NCBI RefSeq assembly: GCF_002863865.1
Contig: NZ_CP022684.1
Coordinates: 2,323,501-2,387,500 of the forward strand
Length of the DNA stretch: 64,000 nucleotides
Origin: Ketobacter alkanivorans
GTDB lineage: Bacteria; Pseudomonadota; Gammaproteobacteria; Pseudomonadales; Ketobacteraceae
Reading direction: 5' to 3'
In this document: one piece after another, positions 220 to 20,048 of the stretch
How positions within the stretch are numbered: the stretch's first letter is position 1
How the letters are laid out: each line of letters starts with the position of its first letter
The notes under the pieces: generated by a model
The model's input: the letters and a program-made list of their open reading frames with translations, nothing else
What the model was told of the DNA's origin: nothing
Databases searched by the model: none
Position numbers and translations under genes: made by a program

Positions 220-1833
220 TTATTGGTTTTCCAGTTTTTCCCCCCAGCACACAACACCGCTATCATCCAATGCACAGGCGTGATAATAGCCCACCTGCAC
301 TTGGCGCGGATTGCTCAACGGTGGCACCTCGGTTACACCAAACTCACTCTGGCCCCAGCAAGAAAGCTGACCATCGTGGATCACACAACGCACCTCATCC
401 GTAGAATCCATCGCGGTGATGTTCTGTAAGCCTTGCGGCTGTGACGCAATCAGCAGCTTATCGTCGGATCGCCCCTGACAGGAAAGGCCAGCCGTTCCCG
501 CCACACACCAGCTGTGCCTGTCGACGTACATAAGGCTGGGATTGGCTATGCTCAGCTCCCACCCCTCAACTTCAGAAGCAGGCCAAAAATCGCCACTGCG
601 CCGCCAACATTGCAGTTGATTGCCACTGGCAGTACAGCCTCCATTATCATCATTGGAATAGTCCCAAGCGGTAGGATTCAATAAAGCCTCATAACGAACA
701 GGCTCACTTGCTATGCCCAATAACGTGCAGTCTACGCCACTGCTGTCCTGCCCACAGAGGCGACCGTTTTCGGAAAGCTCAAAGCTACTGGAATCCGCCA
801 GGGCCACGGGTAATTCAACCAAGCCACCGGCAGCGTTAAAACAGCGCAGGCCCGCATCATCCAGCAGACAATAATGGGGTTCATCAAAGGCGGGCGCGCT
901 AGTGCCAAACTGTCGCGGGTTCTGGGCAATCAGCGGAATGCTTACGCTTAGACCCGATCGATCCCAGCATTGAATGCCATCACCATCCAGCGCGCAGCTG
1001 CGTGAACCGGTCACATCGATCAAGCTGGGCTGGTTCAACGGTGGTACCCGGGTTTGACCGTCAAATCCTACCCCCCAACACTGATCACCCGTATCGTCGC
1101 GTGCGCAGACTCTGGCATCGTCGCCCCAGATTGCAACTGGATTGCTCAGATCTGGCAAAGAACCATCCATACTCCAACAAGCCACCTCGCCACCGCCCAA
1201 TGCGCAGGCGAAATAACGGGTCACCACGAAATCGTCGACACTGGTTAACTGTGCTGGTGCTTCGTCAGCCAAAGCGCCCCAGCAGGTGAAACTATTACCC
1301 GTGCGCACGCAGCCAGCGCTTTCGCTGCCTATTTTGACTTCATCCGCATCGAATACGCTGGGGGCGTTGGCCATATTCCAGCAACTCAGGAAACCCGTGT
1401 CATTTACCCAGCACATGGTCTGCAAGCCATACCAATCCTGCGACACGATGGTACCTTTTGGTTGGAATACGGCATGGGCTGATCCGCTTGAACCTTCATA
1501 CTCTGAGCACAGCGCAGGGCCCCACTCCACACAGCGAGTCGGTAGCGGCACCGTACATTGAGGATCAGGGCCACACCGATCTCCCGTTGCAGAAGACCAG
1601 CCAAGAAAATCCCAATCCGATGTATTGTGCGCTTTAAGAGTAGTAGCAAAGGGAACCCATTGGGCTTGGGTATAGGTTCCGCTACAGGTATCACCACAGT
1701 GAATTGTACTGCCTCCGGTCACCAGACCTTCTCCCGATTTTGTGACTGTGATCTGATATTCCAGCGGATCACTGCACGCCATTAAAGACATAGCCACCAT
1801 CAGCAACATAAAACCTTGCATTAAATACCGCAT
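220..1833 (-). CDS. Exported lipoprotein with RCC1-like, Cys/Trp-rich repeats
   Basis: A 537-residue protein with a lipoprotein signal peptide ending in SLMAC (lipidated Cys near residue 20), so it should sit in the cell envelope. Residues about 27-80 resemble an InlB B-repeat/bacterial Ig-like module (GEGLVTGG, a CxxxC pair, WDFLGW). From about residue 130 on, short units repeat with the pattern CWG or C-x-W plus a preceding C-A-L-D or C-x-R, as in RCC1/BLIP-II-type beta-propellers. The start has AAGGA about nine bases upstream. The function is unknown; a propeller of this type usually binds another protein. It may be cotranscribed with the hydrolase-like lipoprotein 35 bases upstream. Confidence 0.7.
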   Translation of the reverse strand: MRYLMQGFMLLMVAMSLMACSDPLEYQITVTKSGEGLVTGGSTIHCGDTCSGTYTQAQWVPFATTLKAHNTSDWDFLGWSSATGDRCGPDPQCTVPLPTRCVEWGPALCSEYEGSSGSAHAVFQPKGTIVSQDWYGLQTMCWVNDTGFLSCWNMANAPSVFDADEVKIGSESAGCVRTGNSFTCWGALADEAPAQLTSVDDFVVTRYFACALGGGEVACWSMDGSLPDLSNPVAIWGDDARVCARDDTGDQCWGVGFDGQTRVPPLNQPSLIDVTGSRSCALDGDGIQCWDRSGLSVSIPLIAQNPRQFGTSAPAFDEPHYCLLDDAGLRCFNAAGGLVELPVALADSSSFELSENGRLCGQDSSGVDCTLLGIASEPVRYEALLNPTAWDYSNDDNGGCTASGNQLQCWRRSGDFWPASEVEGWELSIANPSLMYVDRHSWCVAGTAGLSCQGRSDDKLLIASQPQGLQNITAMDSTDEVRCVIHDGQLSCWGQSEFGVTEVPPLSNPRQVQVGYYHACALDDSGVVCWGEKLENQ

Positions 1834-1868
1834 AAGAACCCATCCTTTTTAATCCCAATTAAAATGCC

Positions 1869-3974
1869 TTACTGTGAACCCAAACAACTTCCACCCAAAG
1901 ATTCCCCTCGGATGATGGTAGGCGTTACGCCAGCCGCCAAATCCTGCAGAAAACAACCATACTGGTGTTGAGGCTGAGGATATTGAAAGGTTACATGGTG
2001 GCCAGTCATAATGCCGTCTTCTGGGTAACGCACAACCGCTACTGTACGACCAGCCTGATTACCCGCAACAGGGGAGAACATTTGATCATAACCCGCGTTT
2101 TGCAAATATGGTAACAGCTGACTTTCGACCGGCAGATCCAACTCCTCATTAACAAAGTTCGCTCCCAGGCTGATCAAATAAGGGCGCTGCATAGGCAGAG
2201 TGACTTGCTCATCATAGTGACCTTCCACCACAAGAACCTGCGGTGGCGTTGTTGCCTGTTCTGGCGTCTGTAACCACTTTGCAACCTGCACCGAGGTGTT
2301 AGCAGGTGCCAAAGCCAACTCAGCCATCGCCCACACTGGATGGAACAAGTCGCTAGAGACCGTACCGGGTTCTACATTGAGATATATGTTTTCAATGGCA
2401 CCGCCTATGTCGGTTTCACCAATGGAGTAAAACAACGCCAAGCCCAAACCAAAATCACCGGCCCCTGTGGCAACCAAACCCTGGTAGCCCTCATCATTTG
2501 CAGCAACCGAAGAGGCAGTCATGGAGCCCAGCGATTGCCCCATTACAGCTTGCATATCGGTGTCGAACTGGAACGATCCTGAAGCAGAATATGCCTCGGC
2601 ACACAAACTGGCGTCCACCGACATATTCATCACCAAATTTCGATATAACGTACGCTCTGCCACCATTTGGGCAAAGTTATCTCGCATGGCTTGAGGATTG
2701 AGGAAATTATAGGTGGCGTGATTCAGCGTAAACCCGGGAATCAGATCCAGCAAAATATCCAGAAGGCGCAATTGTTCCTGGTGATCTGCACCCAGATGAC
2801 CCGCCATGGCAGCCGTTGCCCAGCCTCGCTGTGCGGCTACCTGAGCCGGACTGCCCATGTACAATTGCGAACCATCCGCCTGCGTCAGGCCCCGCTCGAA
2901 CACTTGCGTCGCTAATCCGCCAGTGCCATGATGATAGTGCAATATTGGAAAGCCGTTGGCAGGCATCTCCTGCTTGGGAATAGTCAGAATAATCGGCGCT
3001 GTGCGAGTGCCGCGTACAATCGGATTACCATCGGCATCATACTCGATCGTTCCGCTGGTAAAAAAGGGAACCACACCTTTCTGCAACACCGGCGACTGCC
3101 AGGTGGATTCCAGCACACAGTAATCGTCTGTCTCTTCACGCAGATGCCACTCAGCATCAGGCTGCGCTGGCTCCCATTGAGAAACCTTTTCCACAACATT
3201 TTTCATATAGCGGCTGGGGTTGCCTGTGGTCCAAACTGTGGCACCGATAATGTCATCCACTGGGATGTCATTAGCGCTGATATACTGGGCCAATGGCGCG
3301 TATACATCCCTGGCGTGGCGCGCCTCTCCAGGCAGCAGCAGAGGATTCACAAACCAGGGATTGTTACCTTTTAATAAAGCGGTCAACTCTGAATTGGGTT
3401 CGACGGATGCTGAGTTACTGGCAAATTCGCGACTGACAATCATCGCGTAAGTCGTGTTTTCACGTAACGGTTTACCTATTGGGCGCACCTGCAACAGATT
3501 TGAGGGTCGGTACTGATCTGCTTCAGTTGTTACGGCAACGCTCAGTGGATATCGGGTGCCATAATCGGGTGAATCAGGGTCGATATCCACCACCTGCACC
3601 GGTGCAGCGGCGCTATCAAAATCCGAGGCCGCCATGGCAGCAATGTGAGGTGCGACACTTAAGCCAGACTCAAACTGCATATATAACGGCATCGCCGGGG
3701 AGAACCCAAAATCTGTGTGGCCAATCAAGTATTTATAGGTGATAGAGAATAGCTGTAACGGTCGCGGAAAATCACGAACATCGATTTCATTGTCATCATT
3801 ACGCAAATCAGTGGGAAACCCCTGACTGAAAAATCCATCACGCCAGGATATTTTTAGTACCATCTCCTCATCATTGAGCCACCCAGCCTGACACCCCATC
3901 GCCAGAGTCAGCACCGGCACCGTAAGCGCGCCCTTTATTATTTTTTGGAACGAATCCCTTTGTGGTAAAAGCAC
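1869..3974 (-). CDS. Lipoprotein with alpha/beta-hydrolase fold (extracellular lipase-like)
   Basis: A 701-residue protein starting at a GTG with AAGGAGAA eight bases upstream. The signal peptide ends TLAMGC, a lipobox, so the mature protein is a lipoprotein. The C-terminal half looks like an alpha/beta hydrolase: FPILHYHHGTGG resembles an oxyanion-hole region and VMGQSLGS near residue 479 has the nucleophile elbow G-x-S-x-G with Ser as nucleophile. The N-terminal half contains a stretch like PLRENTTYAMIVS, as seen before the catalytic part in large secreted lipases of the Pla-1/VolA type. Substrate is not known; a lipid ester is an inference. Only 35 bases separate it from the next lipoprotein gene downstream. 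Confidence 0.7.
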   Translation of the reverse strand: MLLPQRDSFQKIIKGALTVPVLTLAMGCQAGWLNDEEMVLKISWRDGFFSQGFPTDLRNDDNEIDVRDFPRPLQLFSITYKYLIGHTDFGFSPAMPLYMQFESGLSVAPHIAAMAASDFDSAAAPVQVVDIDPDSPDYGTRYPLSVAVTTEADQYRPSNLLQVRPIGKPLRENTTYAMIVSREFASNSASVEPNSELTALLKGNNPWFVNPLLLPGEARHARDVYAPLAQYISANDIPVDDIIGATVWTTGNPSRYMKNVVEKVSQWEPAQPDAEWHLREETDDYCVLESTWQSPVLQKGVVPFFTSGTIEYDADGNPIVRGTRTAPIILTIPKQEMPANGFPILHYHHGTGGLATQVFERGLTQADGSQLYMGSPAQVAAQRGWATAAMAGHLGADHQEQLRLLDILLDLIPGFTLNHATYNFLNPQAMRDNFAQMVAERTLYRNLVMNMSVDASLCAEAYSASGSFQFDTDMQAVMGQSLGSMTASSVAANDEGYQGLVATGAGDFGLGLALFYSIGETDIGGAIENIYLNVEPGTVSSDLFHPVWAMAELALAPANTSVQVAKWLQTPEQATTPPQVLVVEGHYDEQVTLPMQRPYLISLGANFVNEELDLPVESQLLPYLQNAGYDQMFSPVAGNQAGRTVAVVRYPEDGIMTGHHVTFQYPQPQHQYGCFLQDLAAGVTPTIIRGESLGGSCLGSQ

Positions 3975-4050
3975 AGTTCTTCTCCTTAAACTTTCGCTTA
4001 TATTTATTATTCATAGGAAGCTAAAGCTTAAGGAAATACCCATCACAAAC

Positions 4051-4070
4051 AATCACCCGTTCGGGTGGTT
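4051..4070 (-). terminator. Short hairpin after the LuxR-family gene
   Basis: AATCACCCG at 4051-4059 pairs with CGGGTGGTT at 4062-4070 (one G-T pair), ten bases past the stop of the regulator gene at 4081. On the minus strand a T-rich stretch (GATTGTTTGT) overlaps its exit, consistent with a weak intrinsic terminator. Confidence 0.45.
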
Positions 4071-4080
4071 CGTTAATAAC

Positions 4081-6765
4081 CTAATCAAACTCCTCCAAGA
4101 TCCCCAAAAGGTGCGCCTTACGTAATGCCTGGGTACGATTGCTTACTTCGATTTTGCCGTATATTTTCTTCAGGTGGGTCTTCACAGTATTGATTGAGAT
4201 GTAGAGCCGATCAGCAATATCTCCGTTACTTAAGCCTTGCGCTGCGGCCCGCAGCACCTCTCGCTCTCTGAGACTAAGAGGCTCCATGACAGATTTTACA
4301 TCTGTATCCACTGCGACCAGATCGGTATGCGGTGGAGCAGTGACTCGCGAAGAAGCCAATTCAGAAATAGAGCATAAGACTGGGAATGCTTGCATCAGCT
4401 CATCAATATAGCGATGAAACTGGGTCTGCTGTATCAATCGCACAATACGATCAACTTTTTCATCCACAACAACATCACCCTGCAGGGCAAGATAACTTGC
4501 CAATGAAATGCAGGAGGCCATCAATGCATGCCCATTACGCTGATGACTCACGCACAGGCCAAATAGCTCTTCCGCCAAGTGGTAAGCCTTCTCATACACA
4601 CCCAGATAATAATACGCGCGGGCAAGCAATAGACGGTCAGGAACCTGATCATAGCTGATCATTGGAGACTCACTATGTTCGAGGCTGCGCGCCCACTGAT
4701 TAACGGCCACGCGGTCACCGGTGTGCATAGCAAGTTCAGCCGTCAGTGCCGACAAGGATGGCGCTCCCATCCTGATTCTAAATCGCGCGCTACGATCCAG
4801 CTCAATCAGTTTTTGTAACGATTCGGCAGCAGCAGGGTAATCTGCATCTTTCATGCACAACTTAGTATAAAAATCCAACGACAACCATTTCATATGGTGA
4901 TTAGCATGGGCTCCTGTTAACAATGAAAGTTGTCGTTGTAAGCGTTCACGATCAATCGGCAGGCCAAGCTCATAACGCAATCCTGCCAGGCAGAAATCAA
5001 CCACCATCGCGCTGACAAACTCATGCTGATGCTCATGAGTCACACCAAGCCACTGCTGCATCAGCTCCAGTTTAGCCATTGCCGATTGCAGTTGACCCGT
5101 TTGCAATGCAGTAAGATAAAAGAAACTTACTGCCACCATCAGCGCGTAAGGCTCCTTATCGTTCACCGCGCAATCCATTGACCTTTCAAACAGTATGGCA
5201 GCTCGATCCAGCTCACCGAGTAAGAAAGCATCCATTCCTTGCTCCAGGTTTACTTTAGACAACCTTGGATAATCTATCTGCCGAGCAAACCCCCACAAAG
5301 CCTGGCTGTATTCACTGCCGAGATAACCCGATAAACGCTGCGCCAGCGCTACCGTCGTCATGAACTCCACAACCAACTCTTTATCTTCCAAAGACCACTG
5401 ATCGAGGGGCAACCTTGCATGCATGCTTTCTACAATCAGAGAGCCTTTATCTAAAAACAGGTGCATCAATTGAAAATGCCCTAGGTTTGCCAAACTCCAG
5501 CAGTAATGAATAAGAATGCTCAAACTGGATTCAATATAATCGTTAGGTAAGCGCTCAACACACTCCGATACCCGGAGAAAATCCCCTTGGCGACGATAAC
5601 TCAACAACATGGACTGTAAACAATCACAAGCCTCAGACCATTGCTGAATTTCGATCGCGTAGTAAAAAGCGGCTTCCAAACCATCATATTGCTGCAAGTA
5701 CTGAATGGCTCGATGTTGAACCTGCACGATGGCCTCGGCAGGCAGGCGTTGCTGAGCCAGCTCCAGTAGAACGTTGCGGAACAGATCGTGAAACCGCAGC
5801 TCGGTATGTCGATCTTCGGTTGCCGTCAACAGCGCCTTACTTTCCAGGCGCTGCAACAAAGAGCCGTAATCGACTGTTCCGCCTAAAACATTCTGGCACA
5901 AATCGATGGACAGCTTTGGCAACAACCCCAAGCTCAACAGGCTGCTCTGCTCCCAGGGCTCAAGGTCATTAATAACCTCGCGGATAAAGTAACCCACAAC
6001 CTGTTCAGGCAATCGGGCAGGACTATTAGCAATGCTGTTGATGTGCGACTGCAAATGTTCAACAGAACTTAACTGCATGCATAGCAACTGAACCCCAACC
6101 ACCCAACCGTCTGTCAAATTAAAAACGGCTTCGGCAACATGCTCACCAACTGCCTCTGCAAAACGTTTACATAGCATCAATTGGATCTGCGTGGCGGTAA
6201 GCTTAAGATCAGAAAAAGCATAAACCCGAACCGGCCTCTCCCCATACCGTTGCCGAGAAACATTAATCTCTGTACGACTGACAATTAAAATATGAAATGA
6301 TTCGGGTAAATATCGCACACAATGCTGAACACCAAGCACAATGTCGGGATCGGTAATCAGATGAAAATCGTCCAACACCAGCACACCAGGCCTGCTTCCT
6401 GAGCGCTCAATAAGGTCGTTCACCAATGAACTTACAATGTCGTCAATACTACTGAACTGCCCCTCTCGGAGCTTTTGCTGCGCAAATTCACCCACACCAG
6501 GTGCAAGTTTTTGAAACGCCGCGATAAAATAGCGCCAAAATCGAGCCGGATGATTATCGTGTACATCCAGCGTCAACCACACATAATCCAACTCACTCTG
6601 TTGTAATTGCTGGGCGACCAAAGTGGTTTTTCCATATCCAGCTGGTGCATGGAGAACTGTGAGATTAGCATCTCGAATACTGCATTCATCGAGCAACGAA
6701 AGGTGATCGCGAGAAATCCATTCCGCTTTGGTTTTGGGAGTAAAGAATTTTGATTTAATTAACAT
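4081..6765 (-). CDS. MalT-like LuxR-family transcriptional activator (LAL type)
   Basis: About 894 residues from the preferred ATG at 6765, which has CAGGA close upstream; an in-frame ATG at 6813 adds 16 residues but shows no ribosome site. Early residues carry a Walker A motif (APAGYGKTT) and a Walker B (VLVLDDFHL), so it is a STAND-type ATPase. A long helical repeat region follows, and the C-terminus has a LuxR HTH (LSLREREVLRAAAQG, then NTVKTHLKKIYGK). This is the layout of MalT and AlkS: ATP and an inducer cause oligomerisation and activation of transcription. AlkS-type members often control hydrocarbon use, but the inducer here cannot be read from sequence. The JmjC-cupin gene lies just upstream on the same strand. 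Confidence 0.92.
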   Translation of the reverse strand: MLIKSKFFTPKTKAEWISRDHLSLLDECSIRDANLTVLHAPAGYGKTTLVAQQLQQSELDYVWLTLDVHDNHPARFWRYFIAAFQKLAPGVGEFAQQKLREGQFSSIDDIVSSLVNDLIERSGSRPGVLVLDDFHLITDPDIVLGVQHCVRYLPESFHILIVSRTEINVSRQRYGERPVRVYAFSDLKLTATQIQLMLCKRFAEAVGEHVAEAVFNLTDGWVVGVQLLCMQLSSVEHLQSHINSIANSPARLPEQVVGYFIREVINDLEPWEQSSLLSLGLLPKLSIDLCQNVLGGTVDYGSLLQRLESKALLTATEDRHTELRFHDLFRNVLLELAQQRLPAEAIVQVQHRAIQYLQQYDGLEAAFYYAIEIQQWSEACDCLQSMLLSYRRQGDFLRVSECVERLPNDYIESSLSILIHYCWSLANLGHFQLMHLFLDKGSLIVESMHARLPLDQWSLEDKELVVEFMTTVALAQRLSGYLGSEYSQALWGFARQIDYPRLSKVNLEQGMDAFLLGELDRAAILFERSMDCAVNDKEPYALMVAVSFFYLTALQTGQLQSAMAKLELMQQWLGVTHEHQHEFVSAMVVDFCLAGLRYELGLPIDRERLQRQLSLLTGAHANHHMKWLSLDFYTKLCMKDADYPAAAESLQKLIELDRSARFRIRMGAPSLSALTAELAMHTGDRVAVNQWARSLEHSESPMISYDQVPDRLLLARAYYYLGVYEKAYHLAEELFGLCVSHQRNGHALMASCISLASYLALQGDVVVDEKVDRIVRLIQQTQFHRYIDELMQAFPVLCSISELASSRVTAPPHTDLVAVDTDVKSVMEPLSLREREVLRAAAQGLSNGDIADRLYISINTVKTHLKKIYGKIEVSNRTQALRKAHLLGILEEFD

Positions 6766-9913: not shown

Positions 9914-12223
9914 TCAATTTATTGAGATGCCATGAGTGTCGCATCGTTCAATCATATCGCTAATGTCACGCTGACAAATCTGCAGTTGATGATCACCATT
10001 AAAGACCCGATACACATTGAATCCATCCCGCATACGCCACACCGACCACTCACCATCATCTACACGATAACGGGTCTGGTTTTCCGCAACTTCCGGGTTT
10101 AGCAGGTCAATGGGTAGCATATCGATGTAATCATGGTGGCTGCGGGTGGCCTCCCCTACATATATATCAATTGCCTCGGGGTATGGCTCTGTGAAGGCGG
10201 CTTGCACTCTACTATTCGGCACCACTAAATTACCCGCTATTACTACTTGATCCAGACCCGGCGTGATCAACCAACGTTCCACCAGCGCAATCGAATAACC
10301 AGAAAATGTAGGAAGCGGCACCGATGCCAGACTATCCCCAATAGTGGGGATGATACGAGGCACCAATACATCCACCAAGGTCTCGATTAACGATCCAGGA
10401 ATATTTAAACCGTTAAATACTTGCGTCGAATAGACTGTGACCTCTGGAATACCATCCAGAGCTACATCCACAGCATCATTGCCGACACCAACATCCAGCG
10501 GAGCACTTAATGACAGCTGCGCCGAAAACAACGGAACAAAAGCCGCAGCGTCTGGTTTTCTTACTTGCACCAGCGCAGTAAATCGCTCCATACCCAACTG
10601 CAACAACGCGCCATTAATATCATTCAAGTTCACATAGGCTGGGCTGGTGGGCTCTATACTAAACTGAATTTCGTCATCTGGGCCAACAAACTGATCCAAA
10701 CCACTGATTGCGCTTAGCTCACCAATGGGTACAGCCTCAGCAATGTGAGTGAGACCACTGTAATATGCGGCCAGCAACGCCTGATTTAATGCACTGGAAG
10801 GTAAAGCAACCCCAGCATGATATGACGATCCAGACAGGGTGGTGTTTCCCAACCTTGGCAAAGATGTTTCTGAATAGATCGAACCCAAAGCACGGGGTAC
10901 ATTGACCGGCTCCATTGCCATTATTTGGGTATCTAGATTCATGCTGATATTCAGGCCTGCTGGCGACGCCAATGCTGTTGGATTCGTATCGACATTGAAC
11001 GTTTTACCCAGAATAGGGATATCCGCTCCAGTTGGCAGATTCGCCCACAGCGGTTCAACAATTCCAGGCAGTCGTGCTGTCAGTTGATCCCGAATCAGAT
11101 CAGAGATAAAACCACGCACTAGCGGTTCCACCAAATCAAAAATTGGCTCAAAAACGGATGTGATACCACTGAAATCTACTGAATAATTACTTACAGAAAG
11201 CGATGCGTTACTGGGGGACACATTGAACCGGTTATTGGCTATTGATAGAGCTGCAGTAACACTGAAATTGGGATTATCAGCAATACCTGTACCTGATGCG
11301 GTGATAGACACGCTGGGAATGTCAGGAATCGGCCAAGGCAGATCCACAGGATGGGTAGCCGCTCTAGCACGCAGCGAGACAGTAAAACGAGACATCCTCA
11401 CATTGGTGGCTAAACGCGCATTCGATGTAGATGCCAAGGGGTCTGCAACAATTGCAGGCGGGGTGAAGCTCAAACCAGTCAACGTTACATTCGCGTAACC
11501 GACGCTGCCATCAGTACTGGCGATGACCGTTCCCACCAGCCCACCGGTTAGATCAGAACTGGTCAAATAAGGCTCAGCTACCCGATCAATCAGGAACTGA
11601 ATACCATTATCCGTTATGGAGGCTTGCAACGTGTTCGGCAACATTGCCGATTGACTGGTGCCTCGCGGGTGGGCAAATACCGTGCGAGATAATTGCCCAT
11701 AAGCATCTTCTGCATCAAAGGCAACCCATGATAAAGAGTCGTTTACAATATCTTCGACTATCGACTCATCAAATGCACCTTGATCGACGGCAGCAAAACT
11801 GCCATTAATAGACAGCGAACTGGCGCCAATATCATCCTGCAGGTAACCGGCCACCCGCAATCCATCACTGGTATCAACATCGAGTATTTGTACGACAGGC
11901 CCGACCCGGTCAATGATAAATCGAGCAGGAGCAACCGAGCCCGGATCTGTCACTTCAAAAACATTGGTGCCACTGCGGGTGAAACTGGCCAGAGAGCTGC
12001 CACTGGCAGCAACCACACCATCCCCAACCATAAACAAGCCGGTAACATCAGCTCCGTTCAACAATATAGTTAAGTCCGGCGCTTGTTCTGCGGTAAAGCT
12101 AATAACAAACTCCGCAGGAACATCAGGATGAACGCTGTTTTTCTTTGGTTCCTCAATGTTTACCGGTGAACATCCTGCAATAAACACTATGCAGAACATT
12201 ACGATAATCCCTGTATTTCGCAT
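9914..12223 (-). CDS. Large envelope lipoprotein, possible TULIP/BPI-like lipid-binding protein
   Basis: A 769-residue protein with a lipoprotein signal ending FIAGC and a good ribosome site (AAGGAG). No enzyme motif is visible. The first 190 residues look like beta-rich Ig-type modules. Two later stretches resemble the halves of a tubular lipid-binding (TULIP/BPI) protein: an amphipathic helix-like segment near residues 360-395 (FDLVEPLVRGFISDLI, then DQLTARLPGIVEPLW), and a C-terminal one near 615-660 (LVDVLVPRIIPTIG followed by VPLPTFSGYSIALVERW). That resemblance is pattern-based and unproven. It lies 201 bases downstream of an RND exporter gene on the same strand, which suggests a role in moving hydrophobic molecules across the periplasm. 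Confidence 0.6.
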   Translation of the reverse strand: MRNTGIIVMFCIVFIAGCSPVNIEEPKKNSVHPDVPAEFVISFTAEQAPDLTILLNGADVTGLFMVGDGVVAASGSSLASFTRSGTNVFEVTDPGSVAPARFIIDRVGPVVQILDVDTSDGLRVAGYLQDDIGASSLSINGSFAAVDQGAFDESIVEDIVNDSLSWVAFDAEDAYGQLSRTVFAHPRGTSQSAMLPNTLQASITDNGIQFLIDRVAEPYLTSSDLTGGLVGTVIASTDGSVGYANVTLTGLSFTPPAIVADPLASTSNARLATNVRMSRFTVSLRARAATHPVDLPWPIPDIPSVSITASGTGIADNPNFSVTAALSIANNRFNVSPSNASLSVSNYSVDFSGITSVFEPIFDLVEPLVRGFISDLIRDQLTARLPGIVEPLWANLPTGADIPILGKTFNVDTNPTALASPAGLNISMNLDTQIMAMEPVNVPRALGSIYSETSLPRLGNTTLSGSSYHAGVALPSSALNQALLAAYYSGLTHIAEAVPIGELSAISGLDQFVGPDDEIQFSIEPTSPAYVNLNDINGALLQLGMERFTALVQVRKPDAAAFVPLFSAQLSLSAPLDVGVGNDAVDVALDGIPEVTVYSTQVFNGLNIPGSLIETLVDVLVPRIIPTIGDSLASVPLPTFSGYSIALVERWLITPGLDQVVIAGNLVVPNSRVQAAFTEPYPEAIDIYVGEATRSHHDYIDMLPIDLLNPEVAENQTRYRVDDGEWSVWRMRDGFNVYRVFNGDHQLQICQRDISDMIERCDTHGISIN

Positions 12224-12424: not shown

Positions 12425-14863
12425 TTATTGAACAGGAGCCGCATCCGGTTTCATCTCTGCAACTGACTTATGTGGATGCTGTTGATGGTACTGCTTATTC
12501 GCCAGCACCATCAGCGCTGGCGCCAACAGATAGGTTGCCAACAAGGCCAGCACTATACAGCCAGCGGTAATCAATCCAAATATAATCATGTTGGACATCA
12601 ACGACTGAGTATAAATCGAGAAACCAATGCTCAACACAATAGAGGTAATAAGCATTGCACGGCCGGTGGACAGCAGTGTTTTTTCAACTGCGTATGCTGG
12701 ATCACCTGTTTTTAAATAGAGTTTTCGGAAACCATGCATAAAGTGAATATTGTCATCCACCGTCAGACCGATCGCAATGGAGCCAACCAACATAGTCAAC
12801 ATGTCCAGCCGAACATCCAGAAGTTGCAATATAGCCAGAACAATCAGAATGGGTAATAGTGATGGAATCATACTGAGCAGGCCAAGCTTAAGATTGCCGA
12901 TTAACATGACCATCATCAATGTAATAATGATGGCAGCAAAACCATAACTTTCCGCGGTAGAAATCAGCATTTTTCCGAACGTCACCCCCATAATGGGTGC
13001 CACACCGGTGAAACTAACATCAACACCATAGGGCTGGAGATTCGCATTCAGATGATCCCTCAGCCGATCCACCAACTCTTTCGTATGGATTGCATCGAAC
13101 CAGGGCGTGGTAACTGTCAGGCGGGCCGTTTGGTATGTTTTATCAACTAAATTCAGGATGTCATCTGGCTCATCCAGCTCAACCAAAAAAAGCTCCTGGC
13201 TGATTAACGCCGGATCGTCGGGCACTGCAAACTGAGCTTCGTCATTATCATGCAAGGCACGATTAGATTCCTTAATGACATTCACTACACTAATGGCCTT
13301 AACAATACGCCAATCCGGCGATTCCCACGTTACGACATCCTGCTGAATTTTATCCAACGCCTGCAGTAACGGCGCATTAATTACGCCCCGATCCTTGCCT
13401 GTATCCAAAAGAATTTCGAAACTGATGGTCGACCCCATGCGTTGCTCATAATTCTTTATTCCTTGCAGGGTTTCGTTATCTTCTGGCAGCCAGGCCAACG
13501 GGTAGTGCGAGAATTTGATCTGACTGGCAACGGCAGTTGCGGCCACAAATAGCACAACACCCGATACCACAATAATTTTTGGATACTGGGTTGAAACGCG
13601 GGCAAACCACGCCAGCATCGGTTGCAATCCTTTATTCTCATCCTGCTGCAATGGCCTGCGCTTTACTGGCAGAATTGCAATGAGACAGGGCAGAATAAAG
13701 ATAGTAAGCAAGAACGCGATCAACGAACCCAGCGCACCATAGATGCCCAACGCCGAAACCGGGGTAAGATCCGAGGTAGCAAAGGAGGCAAGACCTGCAG
13801 CGGTGGTAACGCTGGTGAACAGCATAGCCAAGCCAGTGTGTCCCATGGCACTGGCCATAGCATGGTGTTTCTCATCACCTGCATCGTAGTTTCGGTAAAA
13901 TATCGTGAGCAAATGGATGCTGTCACCCACACATACCGCCAATAGGAATGCAGGCAAAATGGAGGTGCTAACCTGGATCGGCGAACCCAGTATCGCCATC
14001 AAACTCATTGTGACAACTACACCAAGGGTCATAATCAAAAGCGGCATGAACACGCCAGATAATCGCCGAAAAATCATAAACAGAACCATACCAATAAGTA
14101 GATTGGCCAGCCCTGAAAACACACTGAAGTCCCGCTCCAGTATTTGCGATAACATGATCGCAATGGGCATACTACCTGTCAGTCGGATGTCGTCCGAGAT
14201 AACCCCTCGATAGGGCTCGAGGATTTCCCTGATTTTGGCATCGGCCTCACGCGTTTCGTCTTCGCCCATGTAACCACGATGCCAGTTACCATTTTTATCC
14301 TTGGTAAAGTTAAAGGAATTCAGTCGCACTAACATTGCGACCATATGGCCATCTGCAGAGATTAGAAAATTTTTGTAGTTATCGCTGTTATACGTATACC
14401 GCTTGAGTTTTTCCAACTCAACAGGATCGCCGGGCAACGTTTCCGGCAACAACTCCTCAATATAAAGGGTGTCATCAGCCCCGTGGGTATAACGTGCATT
14501 TACCAGCGAATCCACTTTGTTGACGTGGGGAACTTCATCCTCCAGTTGGCGGTGAAGAGCGTGTAACTGAGTAGCAAATGTCTGCGTGAATATATCCTCC
14601 ACTTCCATGGTGATGATAAACACTTCATCGCGCCCAAACGTTTCTTTGAAGGCGTCATAACGCTGTATTTCAACCGAGCCCTTTTCTAGAAACCCTTCAA
14701 TACTGGTGTCCTTTTCAAGACGGCCAAGCTGCGACGCCATTACCCCGACCACAGCCAGGCAACTCAGCAACCACAACCATGGGCGTCTGCCCATAACCAA
14801 GCCCAGGGATTCAAAGCCGGTTTCGACTTTGGCTTTCCAGTTTGCTTTGTTCTTTTTATTCAT
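12425..14863 (-). CDS. RND-superfamily exporter, MMPL type
   Basis: An 812-residue inner-membrane protein of the COG1033/MMPL class. It has the layout of twelve membrane helices in two similar halves: TM1 near residues 30-47, a periplasmic loop, TM2-6 (SGLANLLIGMVLFMIFRRL, AVCVGDSIHLLTIFYR), then a second loop and TM7-12 with VGSIAIGLTVDDNIHFMHGF. The Asp-rich motifs in TM4 (GDSIH) and TM10 (TVDDNIH) are the usual proton-relay positions. Such exporters move lipids or other hydrophobic molecules with proton-motive force. Its neighbours are a DUF1302 outer-membrane protein and a second RND exporter upstream, and a large lipoprotein downstream. Confidence 0.9.
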   Translation of the reverse strand: MNKKNKANWKAKVETGFESLGLVMGRRPWLWLLSCLAVVGVMASQLGRLEKDTSIEGFLEKGSVEIQRYDAFKETFGRDEVFIITMEVEDIFTQTFATQLHALHRQLEDEVPHVNKVDSLVNARYTHGADDTLYIEELLPETLPGDPVELEKLKRYTYNSDNYKNFLISADGHMVAMLVRLNSFNFTKDKNGNWHRGYMGEDETREADAKIREILEPYRGVISDDIRLTGSMPIAIMLSQILERDFSVFSGLANLLIGMVLFMIFRRLSGVFMPLLIMTLGVVVTMSLMAILGSPIQVSTSILPAFLLAVCVGDSIHLLTIFYRNYDAGDEKHHAMASAMGHTGLAMLFTSVTTAAGLASFATSDLTPVSALGIYGALGSLIAFLLTIFILPCLIAILPVKRRPLQQDENKGLQPMLAWFARVSTQYPKIIVVSGVVLFVAATAVASQIKFSHYPLAWLPEDNETLQGIKNYEQRMGSTISFEILLDTGKDRGVINAPLLQALDKIQQDVVTWESPDWRIVKAISVVNVIKESNRALHDNDEAQFAVPDDPALISQELFLVELDEPDDILNLVDKTYQTARLTVTTPWFDAIHTKELVDRLRDHLNANLQPYGVDVSFTGVAPIMGVTFGKMLISTAESYGFAAIIITLMMVMLIGNLKLGLLSMIPSLLPILIVLAILQLLDVRLDMLTMLVGSIAIGLTVDDNIHFMHGFRKLYLKTGDPAYAVEKTLLSTGRAMLITSIVLSIGFSIYTQSLMSNMIIFGLITAGCIVLALLATYLLAPALMVLANKQYHQQHPHKSVAEMKPDAAPVQ

Positions 14864-15049: not shown

Positions 15050-16375
15050 CTAAAAGCCGAATTCCACTCCGAGCACCAAACGGTCGGTGTCGTCAAACTG
15101 GCCAAACAGCCCATCCAAGTCGCCATAGAAGATGTCCACACCACCCCATACACGCATCGTATCTGTCGCCTGATACACTAATTGCGATCGCACCTGGCCA
15201 TCCTGGTCTTCATCGCTGTACAGCATAAACAACTCAATCTCTAAAGTTTCATTCATTAACGAACGGCGTATCAATAGCGTATGCTGCATACGTTGCTGTT
15301 GACGCACGATGTCATCTTCGTATTCCAGCAACGTGCTTTGAAACCATTGATAGCTAAGAAACCAGTCAGTAAATCCCCGATAATCCAACCCCAATACAGA
15401 ACTGATTTCAGGTGTGTTGGCAATGCCATCCTCCTGCAAGCTGTTACGCACATGGTAGGTCTCAGTGCTGTAACCTGCCTCCATTCGCACAACCCAGTCG
15501 CCAAATGCGTTGCTGGCAGTGGCTCCATACAGCTGGCTGGGCTCATACACAGGTACCACATCTATCTGACCCGAACCCAATCTGAGATAGTTGACGGGTA
15601 TATCCTGACGGTGATTTAAGTAGTTCAACGTTAGATCCCAGCCTGAGTAGAACAACCTGTAGCGTGCTCCGAATTCGACTTCATTAACGGGGCGCTCGAC
15701 CTCGTGGATCATAACAGGCAAGGGTGCAGCACTCAGGGCTGGGCGGTATTTAGAGCTGGTGATGTAGTATGGCGTCCCCACATCAGCCAGCTTGCTGTAG
15801 GTTGCGTCGGGTATTATCAACAATTGCAGTGTGGAATCTTCACTGGTGTTGAACTCCACGTTCATCATCCACAAGGCGATGCGAGAATCCTCAAATTCAT
15901 CAAGATTAAATTCACGGTAATCCTGGGGGTTTACAACATCCAATACTTTCAGCCCATCGGCTTGCCCCCACACAACCTGCTGCTTCCCCAGGCGCCAATA
16001 TCCATCCCAGGCTGCAAAATCCAGGTAAGCTTCCGCCAACTCCAGTAGGCCATGATGATTGGACGCCAGCGGCCCATTGAAAGATGAGTAGTTACTCTCA
16101 TCAGGATCATCCACATACAGCTTACTGTCTGCGGCTGCAACCAATTTCGGAATCAGGGTATAACGTATCGAAGGTGCAAGGTCACCACTGATTTCCGGTT
16201 TAATGGTGGTATTGGCATTCTGCAGTTCTGAGTCAGTAAGCCCTATGTCAAACTCGACTTCGATTTCAGTGTTAATTTCAATATCGGAAAAGGCAAATGC
16301 AGCACCAGACCAAACCACCGCATATATCCCAACTAGTAATAACACCAAAGCGGAAATGACTGTTTTATGGGTCAT
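15050..16375 (-). CDS. DUF1302-family outer-membrane beta-barrel protein
   Basis: About 441 residues from the ATG at 16375, directly after the stop of the RND-LolA gene (TAATATG), so the two are almost certainly cotranscribed. A signal peptide is visible (ISALVLLLVGIYAV, then a cleavage region at GAAFAF). The mature part has alternating strands, the motif YWRLGKQQVVWGQADGLKVLD typical of DUF1302, and ends LVLGVEFGF with a C-terminal Phe, the outer-membrane barrel signature. DUF1302 proteins are usually found with LolA-like/DUF1329 proteins and MMPL exporters in clusters for hydrophobic compounds. An upstream in-frame start at 16417 would overlap the previous gene and is less likely. Confidence 0.85.
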   Translation of the reverse strand: MTHKTVISALVLLLVGIYAVVWSGAAFAFSDIEINTEIEVEFDIGLTDSELQNANTTIKPEISGDLAPSIRYTLIPKLVAAADSKLYVDDPDESNYSSFNGPLASNHHGLLELAEAYLDFAAWDGYWRLGKQQVVWGQADGLKVLDVVNPQDYREFNLDEFEDSRIALWMMNVEFNTSEDSTLQLLIIPDATYSKLADVGTPYYITSSKYRPALSAAPLPVMIHEVERPVNEVEFGARYRLFYSGWDLTLNYLNHRQDIPVNYLRLGSGQIDVVPVYEPSQLYGATASNAFGDWVVRMEAGYSTETYHVRNSLQEDGIANTPEISSVLGLDYRGFTDWFLSYQWFQSTLLEYEDDIVRQQQRMQHTLLIRRSLMNETLEIELFMLYSDEDQDGQVRSQLVYQATDTMRVWGGVDIFYGDLDGLFGQFDDTDRLVLGVEFGF

Positions 16376-16376
16376 A

Positions 16377-19300
16377 TTACAACCCCCGCTCCAAGGTTCG
16401 ACGCGTAAACACGTCATCCTTTACTGGCGTCTGGTAATCTACGTCAGAGAATTCAAAGCGGCTATGATGACCGGTCTTATGGTTTTGCACTTCCAGCTGG
16501 TGCTTGGTCCAGATGCCGTTGACCTTGGATACTCTGGATGCAGTATAGGTTTTCAGATAACGTTCTTTCTGATCCCAGTAATCGCTTTTCACGATGACCC
16601 AGTTGTGCGGATTAACCCAGAACAGGCTGCGCACGTAGCCCAGCTCATCTGCGATTTTTGGGGTTTTGGCGATGGCAGCCACCTTATAGGTTGTTATTGA
16701 TTCACCAGCCACTTCAATGATTTCTTCGCCCAAGGTCTCAAAATCGAAATCCTGCTTTTCGAGCTTGCCTGCCTTTTTTATGTCCTCGTAGGTGAAATCC
16801 GTCCCCAAAAAATAGTCGCCACGATCCGAGGCAGATATACGGCGCACCTTGCGTAGAGCCGGCAAGTAGAGCCATTGATCATCCTCTGCTTCACTATCGG
16901 CGTAATCATAGGTAAGGAAACCGGTATCTTTCACATTGGTGGGGCGCTGGTAGAACAACAATGTGCGCTTTTCTTCACCAAAATATTTGCGATAGCTGAC
17001 AGCCTCCCGAGTACGGACTTTTCCTGATTTATCCGTCAACGTCATATGCAGGTTACTGACGGCATGCTCGCCTTCCTCCACTTGGTTAATACGGTCTACA
17101 ATGGTGGCAGCATCCGGCAACTCACTGGCCGGAGCCGGTTGGGAGTTAAGAGCAAGCATAAGACCCACAAAACCAACGATACTTATGTTCTTTACCCACA
17201 CTGCGCTACTTTCCACGTCTGCATTATTGTGTTTTCCGTACAAAAATGCGGGTTTCAGCACTAGCACCAACGCAGGCAGCAACACCAGGGAAGCAATAAA
17301 ACTCATGGTGACAGACAACACTACGATGGTGCCAAAGATATTCAGCGGTACCACCTTGGATATAATCAATACACCAAAGCCACAAGCCACGGCCAGATAG
17401 TTAAACAACAGTGCACGCCCAGTGGTGGCATAAAGATTCATCACCAAATCGCCCGTTGAGGGAACGCCCTTTTGGTACAGCGACTTGAGTCGATCAAGAG
17501 TATGAATCGCGAAATCGATACCTAAACCGATGGCCACCGATGCGAACATAGAGGTACCGATGCCCAGATCAATTTTGAGTAGCGCCATGGTGGCGTATAC
17601 CATGAGGATTGAGCTGACTACTGGTAGCACTGCCATCACACCGGCAACGACCGACCGGAACAACACAATAGATACAAGCAGCACAAAGCCCAGCGATATA
17701 CCCACACTCAAAAAGTGACTGCGACCGATATCTTTTAGCCAATGGTAATTAAGATTGACTCGACCTGTAAGGGTGGCACTTACGTGGGCATCGCTGAAGT
17801 GCTCGCTCAAATAAGATTCCATTGCTTGTACTAATGGTGCGGTCTCGACAAACGCGGCCGTATCCAGATAAAAGCGCACATTGGCGAGCCGGTATTCATA
17901 ATCCACTACGTTATCAAAATCAGTCGGATCGCTGCTGGCCGAGTACAGCAACAAATACTGCGCAGCCAGCTCCTTACTGTCTGGCAGCTTGTAGAATGCA
18001 TTCTGATCCTCATTCAGCGACTTATTCATCTGCTTCAAGAAATCCACTAACGACATGGATCCGTTAATATGTGCCAGGGATTCGCCATAAGCCTGTAGCG
18101 CTTCAATTTTTGCTAATACAACTGGATCGAACAAACCCTCAGACTCATTCGTTTCAATCACTACGTCCAAAGTATTGGTGCCTTGCATGTGTTGATTAAT
18201 GGCCTTATCGGCCTGATAGAGGGGCTCGTCTGGGTGGAATGTTTCAATACGGTCGTCATTCACTCGCAGCTGCACGCTCAGCACCAACCCCACCACTGCC
18301 AACGCAGCAAACACGACCACTGTGATATTGGCATTACGAGTAGCCGCACCGCCCAGTGCCAACATGCCCCGCGCAAACACATCCTTGCTGCTGGCTTGTT
18401 CCAGTTTGATCCAGCGCTTACTTACTTTAGGTTTAGTGATAGCTATCACTGCAGGCAAGACAAACAGTGAATAGAACCAAGCCACCAGTACACCGAAGGC
18501 GGTAAACAAGCCGAAATATTCAAACGGTGGCATGTAAGCAGACACATACAGCCCGATAAAGCCCGCCATAGTGGTGATGGTGGTGAGCGTGACAGGCCAC
18601 GCCATCGTAGTGGTCGCTTCCTCAATGGCCTGACGACTGGAGTAGTGCGGATGTTTTGCCAACAACTCGTAATAGCAGCTAAATATATGAATGGAATCTG
18701 CTACCGCCATTCCAATTAGAATTACGGGCATCGCATTGGTTATCACATAGAAAGGCACGCCACTGTATCCCATAAGGCCTACCGTCATTAGCACAGCGGC
18801 GGCAATCACCATGTTACCCAATAGTGCTGGAGCAAAGCGTCGGAACGCCACTATCAACATAATAGTAATGATCAACCCGGCCAAAGGATTAAGGCGACTT
18901 GCATCCCGATCAATGTAATGGCCCAGGTAACCCAGCACCGCACCCTCACCCGCTGTATATATTTTTGTCGAGCCCGGCAACCTTTGATTAGCAACCAACT
19001 GCGTCAACGCCTGATAAGTAGCTTCCGCCTTGGCGTCGTCATACAGCTCGGCAATGATCAGTGTCATGGCACCATCCTCTGCCACCAACAAGCCGTTATA
19101 AAGAGGGAAATTCTGCACCGCTTGCCTTACCGCATCTGGCCCACTGTCCGCCAACAGCTCCATAAATGGAAACACCTCCATACCGCTGCTGGTTCCCATA
19201 ATATTGTTCTCTGTGGCCAAGCTCATGGTGCGATCTTCATTGATATTTGGAAGCGCATTTACTGCATCAGTTAAGGTGCCCACCAGCGCCAGAACTTCTG

Positions 19301-19538
19301 GATCATAAATACCTTCAGGGCCTTGGCTTTCAACCGCAATCACCAATGGATCACTGATTTCAAATAGTGATCGGGCTTTATTTTTGTATATCAGTGCTGG
19401 ATTCTGTGGCGACAAAAAGGCATCAGCGCGGGTGTCTTTAAAGATCTTGGTAAGGCCGGATGCCAGCAACCCCAGACACAACAACCCAATCAGCAGGGTG
19501 GATTTGGGATAGCGTACCCCAATCAATATGAATTTCAT
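16377..19538 (-). CDS. MMPL-type RND exporter fused to a LolA-like outer-membrane lipoprotein-sorting domain
   Basis: A 1053-residue ORF. Residues 1-775 form a complete COG1033 RND exporter with two six-helix bundles (GMAVADSIHIFSCYYE in TM4; ASVAIGLGIDFAIHTLDRL in TM10). Residues about 812-1053 are a LolA-like domain (COG2834): DDQWLYLPALRKVRRI, SDRGDYFLGTDFTYEDI, SLFWVNPHNWVIVKSDYW. Between them, residues 782-808 read exactly like a signal peptide (VKNISIVGFVGLMLAL ending PAPAS). An in-frame GTG at 17199-17201 (Val780), with GGAAAG seven bases ahead, could start the carrier separately. RND exporters and LolA-like carriers are usually separate neighbouring genes. The start at 19538 has GGAG nine bases upstream. 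Confidence 0.9.
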   Translation of the reverse strand: MKFILIGVRYPKSTLLIGLLCLGLLASGLTKIFKDTRADAFLSPQNPALIYKNKARSLFEISDPLVIAVESQGPEGIYDPEVLALVGTLTDAVNALPNINEDRTMSLATENNIMGTSSGMEVFPFMELLADSGPDAVRQAVQNFPLYNGLLVAEDGAMTLIIAELYDDAKAEATYQALTQLVANQRLPGSTKIYTAGEGAVLGYLGHYIDRDASRLNPLAGLIITIMLIVAFRRFAPALLGNMVIAAAVLMTVGLMGYSGVPFYVITNAMPVILIGMAVADSIHIFSCYYELLAKHPHYSSRQAIEEATTTMAWPVTLTTITTMAGFIGLYVSAYMPPFEYFGLFTAFGVLVAWFYSLFVLPAVIAITKPKVSKRWIKLEQASSKDVFARGMLALGGAATRNANITVVVFAALAVVGLVLSVQLRVNDDRIETFHPDEPLYQADKAINQHMQGTNTLDVVIETNESEGLFDPVVLAKIEALQAYGESLAHINGSMSLVDFLKQMNKSLNEDQNAFYKLPDSKELAAQYLLLYSASSDPTDFDNVVDYEYRLANVRFYLDTAAFVETAPLVQAMESYLSEHFSDAHVSATLTGRVNLNYHWLKDIGRSHFLSVGISLGFVLLVSIVLFRSVVAGVMAVLPVVSSILMVYATMALLKIDLGIGTSMFASVAIGLGIDFAIHTLDRLKSLYQKGVPSTGDLVMNLYATTGRALLFNYLAVACGFGVLIISKVVPLNIFGTIVVLSVTMSFIASLVLLPALVLVLKPAFLYGKHNNADVESSAVWVKNISIVGFVGLMLALNSQPAPASELPDAATIVDRINQVEEGEHAVSNLHMTLTDKSGKVRTREAVSYRKYFGEEKRTLLFYQRPTNVKDTGFLTYDYADSEAEDDQWLYLPALRKVRRISASDRGDYFLGTDFTYEDIKKAGKLEKQDFDFETLGEEIIEVAGESITTYKVAAIAKTPKIADELGYVRSLFWVNPHNWVIVKSDYWDQKERYLKTYTASRVSKVNGIWTKHQLEVQNHKTGHHSRFEFSDVDYQTPVKDDVFTRRTLERGL

Positions 19539-19553
19539 CGTGTTCGCTCCATT

Positions 19554-19570
19554 ATATGTATATGCATGTA
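19554..19570 (-). promoter_or_regulatory. Putative MarR operator in front of the RND-LolA gene
   Basis: ATGTATATGCATG at 19556-19568 matches ATGCATATGCATG at 20086-20098, in the promoter of the adjacent marR-like gene, at 12 of 13 bases. It lies 16-32 bases upstream of the ATG and abuts a TATAAT on the minus strand. Binding there would block initiation. Confidence 0.6.
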
Positions 19571-19628: not shown

Positions 19629-20048
19629 TCAGGTTTTCATTTCTACCAGGGATTCGGATACGTTCAGCAGTTGCTGAATAACGTCAGCACCCAGTTTTTT
19701 CTCAACGCTTTTCTGTGCTTGTTGCCATTGCTTTTGCGCTTGCTTGTATAAGGCCTTACCATCATCAGACAACGAGCACAGCATCACCCGTCGATCTTCA
19801 GAATCCGGGGTTCGGGTTATATAACCTTCACGAATCAAAGGCTTAAGACTGCGGGTTAGAGTAGCTTGATCCACCAACAAGGCCTTCTCCAGTTCTTGCT
19901 GCGAGCAGCACTTCATATACCACAACACACGCAACACGCTGAACTGGGTGACTTTGATGCCACTTTCACTCAGAAAAGCGTTGTAATGGCTGGTCAGCAC
20001 TCGATCGGCCTGACGCAGCTTGAGATTGAAGCAAGGATCAATAGTCAT
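19629..20048 (-). CDS. MarR-family transcriptional regulator
   Basis: A 139-residue winged-helix regulator. The DNA-binding part shows CSQQELEKALLVDQATLTRS followed by LIREGYITRTPDSEDRRVML, the MarR recognition helix and beta-wing with the conserved D-x-R-R. It lies 90 bases upstream of the RND-LolA gene on the same strand. A palindrome in its own promoter recurs before that gene, pointing to autoregulation and control of the exporter. MarR proteins typically release DNA on binding a lipophilic or phenolic ligand; the ligand here is unknown. Confidence 0.93.
   Translation of the reverse strand: MTIDPCFNLKLRQADRVLTSHYNAFLSESGIKVTQFSVLRVLWYMKCCSQQELEKALLVDQATLTRSLKPLIREGYITRTPDSEDRRVMLCSLSDDGKALYKQAQKQWQQAQKSVEKKLGADVIQQLLNVSESLVEMKT

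Follow-up and report, generated by a model that had tools for sequence, protein, structure and literature searches.

How does a cell handle a reading frame that encodes both an inner-membrane exporter and a soluble periplasmic carrier? The question is raised by a gene in the window, the 64,000-nucleotide stretch of DNA analysed here. A sequence-only reading had noticed in it an MMPL exporter running directly into a LolA-type domain, through a junction that resembles a signal peptide, and had left three options: pump and carrier form one tethered chain, the carrier is released by signal peptidase, or the carrier is made from an internal start. It had also named two ways of being mistaken: a sequencing error removing a stop codon near 17.2 kb, or a stop at the junction, and hence two genes, in all close relatives. 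To our knowledge, LolA3-type (PF17131) proteins, the group to which the carrier belongs, are widespread and have no known function. We find that release by signal peptidase I is the likely answer, and we set out below the gene itself, its relatives and neighbours, the joint, and the mechanism that we propose.

The fused gene and its two halves

The proposed MMPL-LolA_like precursor gene (16377..19538, minus strand) encodes a protein of 1053 amino acids. In the window sequence its frame is intact, with GGAG preceding the ATG, and the annotation is based on this open frame, on Pfam domains in both halves and on fused frames in relatives. The continuous frame described earlier was thereby borne out.

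The first half, residues 1-763 (17250..19538, minus strand), is an MMPL/HAE3-type RND exporter with 12 transmembrane (TM) helices and two porter domains. Pfam MMPL (PF03176) matches two stretches of the fusion (E 4.6e-27; 95.3 bits for a cut-off of 20.5), the count of 12 helices comes from both hydropathy and the AF2 model, and the two porter domains belong to an RND fold. Foldseek matched this half to MmpL4/5 with a TM of about 0.8 over the target, and NPC1-type proteins were also among the fold matches. The best NCBIfam model is TIGR00921 (HAE3), whose 221 bits fall under the curated cut-off of 351.9; the pump is therefore HAE3-like, and not a formal member by that model. Two aspartates, D281 in TM4 and D675 in TM10, are invariant across 40 fusions and are candidate proton-relay residues, a role that we infer from the family. 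Simple repeats were sought within the fusion gene, and only chance-like pairs were found.

The second half, the predicted mature carrier (residues 805-1053; 16380..17126, minus strand), is assigned by Pfam LolA_like (PF17131), which covers residues 856-1051 with 172.5 bits (cut-off 30), and by its fold. Its closest solved structure in Foldseek is LolA3 of Porphyromonas gingivalis, 9tp6 (TM 0.88 over the target, 31% identity). The Pfam scan gave no match to the canonical LolA family PF03548 in the fusion, the host genome has a separate canonical LolA gene, lying across the contig ends, and the P. gingivalis LolA3 interacts only weakly with LolB (PMC13103446). For these reasons the carrier is predicted to be a LolA3-like protein and not a canonical lipoprotein chaperone. 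The 'LolA-type carrier' of the sequence-only reading thus keeps its place in the LolA superfamily but needs narrowing to the LolA3/PF17131 group, to whose members in P. gingivalis (PMC13103446) and Flavobacterium johnsoniae (PMC11885536) the authors assigned no function.

Fused and split arrangements and their neighbours

The fusion is present as one open frame in 8 of 57 related genomes searched, at 40-80% identity: two congeners (about 80%), four members of another genus of the family (about 53%), and two members of other families (54% and 40%). A scan of one genome per species yielded 80 best loci, a sample that is weighted towards close relatives of the window's carrier and shares a few genomes with the 57-genome set, such as the two congeners (L038 and L039). 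In this sample, 37 loci are fused in frame and 43 have a separate carrier gene. Fused hosts include Marinobacter, Thalassolituus, Marinomonas, Pseudomaricurvus, Microbulbifer and Pelagibius, and the MMPL-LolA_like fusion is found in many marine bacteria. One candidate (L112) was dropped from the fused class because its pump and its carrier lie in different frames. In a myxococcotal genome (L074), a close LolA_like gene had no MMPL or DUF1302 neighbour in the 14.8 kb covered.

An artefact or a decaying gene, created by a sequencing error or by a recent and functionless stop loss, might be considered, since the gaps or overlaps of separate-gene relatives are often very short (e.g. -4 or +1 nt) and a small change can thus fuse the genes. 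Yet the fused frame recurs in many independent assemblies, staying open across the joint in the 8 related genomes and in 37 of the 80 loci, and both flanking domains are strongly conserved. Its probability is negligible: conserved fused homologues rule out a sequencing error or lost stop. The relatives, moreover, are mixed, some fused and some split, and so do not all carry two genes with a stop at the junction.

On a tree of pump and mature carrier, from which the junction columns were left out, the fused or split label changes at least six times, at least four of these changes being forced by well-supported branches. The two arrangements therefore interconvert. The window's own well-supported group is fused in 26 of 27 members, L061 being the only split one. 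This interconversion, together with separate-gene carriers that have their own signal peptide within the same gene order, fits a functional equivalence of the two states. Taken together, the comparisons indicate that the fusion is real, widespread and constrained. It is nonetheless a minority form at class scale, since in 369 genomes drawn evenly from the class the only frames longer than 1000 amino acids among the matches listed were those of the window and of one genome, G392. The G392 protein is a distant fusion (28% identity along its length) whose joint is of a like kind and ends in GGFAHA|DSS. Its gene (1237-4383 of locus L124) has a thioesterase gene on one side (59-742) and a phosphopantetheinyl transferase gene on the other (5599-6285), flanks hinting at a natural-product cargo there, non-ribosomal or polyketide. 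In the literature we found no described MMPL-LolA fusion and no bacterial polyprotein with an internal signal peptide, an absence that is no proof.

The host genome holds four further LolA_like genes, all separate and each with an ordinary-looking N-terminal signal peptide. At one of these paralogous loci (L121, 2230-6920) the LolA_like gene shares 4 nt (ATGA) with its MMPL gene; from this arrangement, a single small change would fuse the two. The locus has domains like those of the window's fusion, followed by a 445-aa protein, but its genes are separate and its carrier has its own N-terminal signal peptide. Elsewhere in the genome, a paralogous LolA_like/DUF1302-like/MMPL set adjoins a thioesterase gene (PF00975; L122, 624-1385 and 1387-5795).

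Gene order is usually the same in fused and split loci: pump, carrier and DUF1302 barrel, in many cases preceded by a MarR gene. In the window, the ATG of the barrel gene lies one base past the fusion stop (TAAtATG). This gene (15050..16375, minus strand) encodes a DUF1302-family outer-membrane beta-barrel with its own signal peptide (PF06980, E 8e-15), modelled by AF2 with a porin/AlgE-like fold at a pLDDT of 88.9. A barrel match lies downstream in all 37 fused loci, and across 68 loci, fused as well as split, the median gap to the barrel is 2 nt. Upstream of the fusion is a MarR-family regulator (19629..20048, minus strand; PF01047), and 26 of the 37 fused loci have a same-strand MarR gene within 2.5 kb upstream. 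Just upstream of the fusion start codon, a near-palindromic box, ATGCATATACAT (19556..19567), is a probable MarR operator. A pattern of the same type occurs upstream in 18 of 36 fused loci, and boxes like GTGTATATACAC in several others. The window's box is related to the GTGTATATACAC of Marinobacter, and many such loci have a MarR gene. Past the barrel gene lie a second MMPL pump of 812 aa (12425-14863, minus strand) and a 769-aa protein (9914-12223, minus strand) that has no Pfam match and no match in the other 80 loci.

The joint and the fate of the carrier

Pump and carrier are connected by a variable linker and an internal signal-peptide-like segment (residues 764-804; 17127..17249, minus strand). 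In the AF2 model, residues 770-806 have a pLDDT below 50 and the LolA fold follows. The joint reads V780-W-V-K-N-ISIVGFVGLMLALN-S-Q-P-A-P-A804|S805-E, with an n-region around K783, an h-region at 785-797 and a c-region SQPAPA; the resemblance to a signal peptide ending in PAPAS was accurately described from the sequence. The features of a signal peptidase I substrate are all present, namely a basic n-region, an apolar h-region and small residues at -3 and -1, and the predicted site is A804|S805 (PAPA|S; 17124..17129, minus strand). Twelve TM helices would place the N-terminal side of the joint in the cytoplasm, and an N-in signal fits this topology.

Homologues with a like junction were found. 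From F765 to the carrier core the fusion sequences are not reliably alignable, and what their joints have in common is an apolar stretch, preceded by a flank of basic or polar character and running into an end rich in alanine. The -1 position, A804, is alanine in 36 of the 40 rows of the fusion alignment, serine taking its place in fusion L051. The -3 residue (802) is small in about 36 of 39 fusions, while over the 40 rows -2 (803) is variable and +1 (805) is mostly S, E, A, Q or T. Among 44 linker columns, A804 evolves most slowly: its maximum-likelihood site rate is 0.27, against a linker median of 3.83 and a whole-protein median of 0.68.

Joints were also scored with a cleavage matrix trained only on the signal peptides of separate-gene relatives. 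Their median of 4.9 compares with -1.6 to 4.0 for the 12 true TM helices (AUC 0.81, p 1e-11). Separate-gene signal peptides have a higher median, 9.6, a gap due in part to the matrix having been trained on them, and only 56% of joints reach their 10th percentile. The cut preferred by the matrix is not at A804 in a number of rows, including the window's. Simpler rules discriminate less: a strict A-x-A motif in a wide window occurs in 58% of joints and in 0-45% of other helices, a modest separation, and a loose small-x-small rule does not separate joints from true TM helices. We consider that the pattern at the joint probably reflects selection for cutting by signal peptidase I, the cutting itself being deduced from this pattern.

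A TM-like stretch at the joint would likewise be needed by a membrane-anchored carrier, though a -1 alanine would not. In such a tethered machine the joint would remain uncut, adding a 13th TM helix to the pump and making the LolA-like domain an anchored loading or unloading domain, much as in NPC1. Apolar runs of up to 31 residues make membrane spanning possible in some homologues, a disordered linker of about 37 residues gives reach, and NPC1-type proteins do match the pump fold. We nevertheless think this arrangement unlikely: the most constrained site of the linker is the -1 alanine, for which a mere anchor has no use; the apolar core in the window is only 13 residues long; and separate-gene relatives, with which fused ones repeatedly switch states, make a carrier that is soluble and has a normal signal peptide. 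Cleavage might also be partial or regulated, so that a carrier still tethered to the pump would take on cargo at the inner membrane while a released form ferried it to the barrel; we consider this coexistence of two forms rather unlikely.

In a further alternative, the carrier would also be translated from an in-frame GTG or equivalent codon, yielding both fusion and free carrier. The GTG proposed earlier as a start (codon 780; 17199..17201, minus strand) is indeed in frame with GGAAAG 7 nt upstream, and in two other fusions (L046 and L044) the linker contains an ATG whose Shine-Dalgarno match is fair. As a start, however, it is not conserved. Before the apolar stretch, 14 of 43 fusions have no in-frame ATG, GTG or TTG; an ATG or GTG with a Shine-Dalgarno-like match of at least 4 nt occurs in only 3 of 43; and the motif is absent at the place of the GTG in the window's nearest relatives. 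Internal initiation thus seems very improbable. Of the three original options, release by signal peptidase is favoured by a near-invariant A804 in an otherwise free linker, by joints scoring above the 12 TM helices and by the 43 of 80 loci in which a separate gene encodes the carrier with an ordinary N-terminal signal peptide; the other two are disfavoured.

A proposed polyprotein and the systems it resembles

Our best reading, which we hold to be likely on comparative grounds, is that the gene encodes a polyprotein from which signal peptidase I frees the carrier, giving pump and carrier in a 1:1 ratio. The ribosome would first make the 12-TM MMPL/HAE3-type RND pump, leaving its C-terminus in the cytoplasm. 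The Sec machinery would then read the segment after the pump as a signal sequence and deliver the LolA3-like domain to the periplasm, where signal peptidase I would cleave the chain behind A804 (PAPA|S). In this way the cell would obtain equal numbers of pump and soluble carrier, produced side by side. Powered by protons, the pump would extract a hydrophobic cargo from the inner membrane and the freed carrier would move it through the periplasm to the outer membrane, where it would be received by the DUF1302 barrel, the product of the next gene downstream; the whole cassette would be controlled by the upstream MarR regulator. The direction of transport and the carrier role of the pump/LolA_like system are what we infer from these genes, and most likely the system moves a hydrophobic compound or a lipid outward through the envelope.

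If this is true, the conserved internal cutting site represents a way in which bacteria use a polyprotein to produce pump and carrier 1:1, and it offers a simple way of asking whether the carrier must be free to work. The repeated fusion of PF17131 domains to MMPL/HAE3-type pumps and their constant pairing with DUF1302 also name the likely partners of LolA3-type proteins, and suggest that these proteins carry the cargo of pumps rather than lipoproteins.

A comparable organization exists in the FbcH cytochrome b/c1 preprotein of Bradyrhizobium japonicum, in which an internal signal sequence connects a polytopic membrane protein to a periplasmic protein and signal peptidase cuts the chain. There, the products are respiratory-chain subunits that both stay in one complex, and the sequences are unrelated to the window's fusion. 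Mycobacterial MmpL pumps and eukaryotic NPC1 have the RND fold in common with the pump half, and NPC1 has a tethered lipid-binding (sterol-binding) domain of its own; we know of no LolA-like domain and no cleavable C-terminal joint in either. The LolA3 proteins of P. gingivalis (PDB 9tp6; PMC13103446) and F. johnsoniae (PMC11885536) are free periplasmic proteins with their own signal peptide, whereas the window's carrier is a domain of a fusion. The iron-regulated operons of P. gingivalis (PG1175-81) and Prevotella intermedia combine, like the window, a regulator, an MMPL transporter and an 'outer membrane lipoprotein-sorting protein', but as separate genes, with a TetR regulator and ABC ATPase genes (PMC10434189).

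A close parallel in make-up is AmeABCD of Castellaniella defragrans, whose deletion lowers tolerance to hydrophobic monoterpenes (PMC6394551). This cassette brings together an HAE3-family RND pump (AmeD), a LolA-superfamily periplasmic protein (AmeB) and a DUF1302 protein of the outer membrane (AmeA) (PMC6394551). All its genes are separate, AmeB is of the DUF1329 type while the window's carrier is PF17131, and it has an extra periplasmic protein, AmeC (COG4447), a family for which the Pfam scan gave no match in the seven genes around the fusion. The combination of an RND pump, a LolA-superfamily protein and a DUF1302 barrel encoded together is found in the window as well, which thus appears to hold an export cassette of a known kind, here in fused form.
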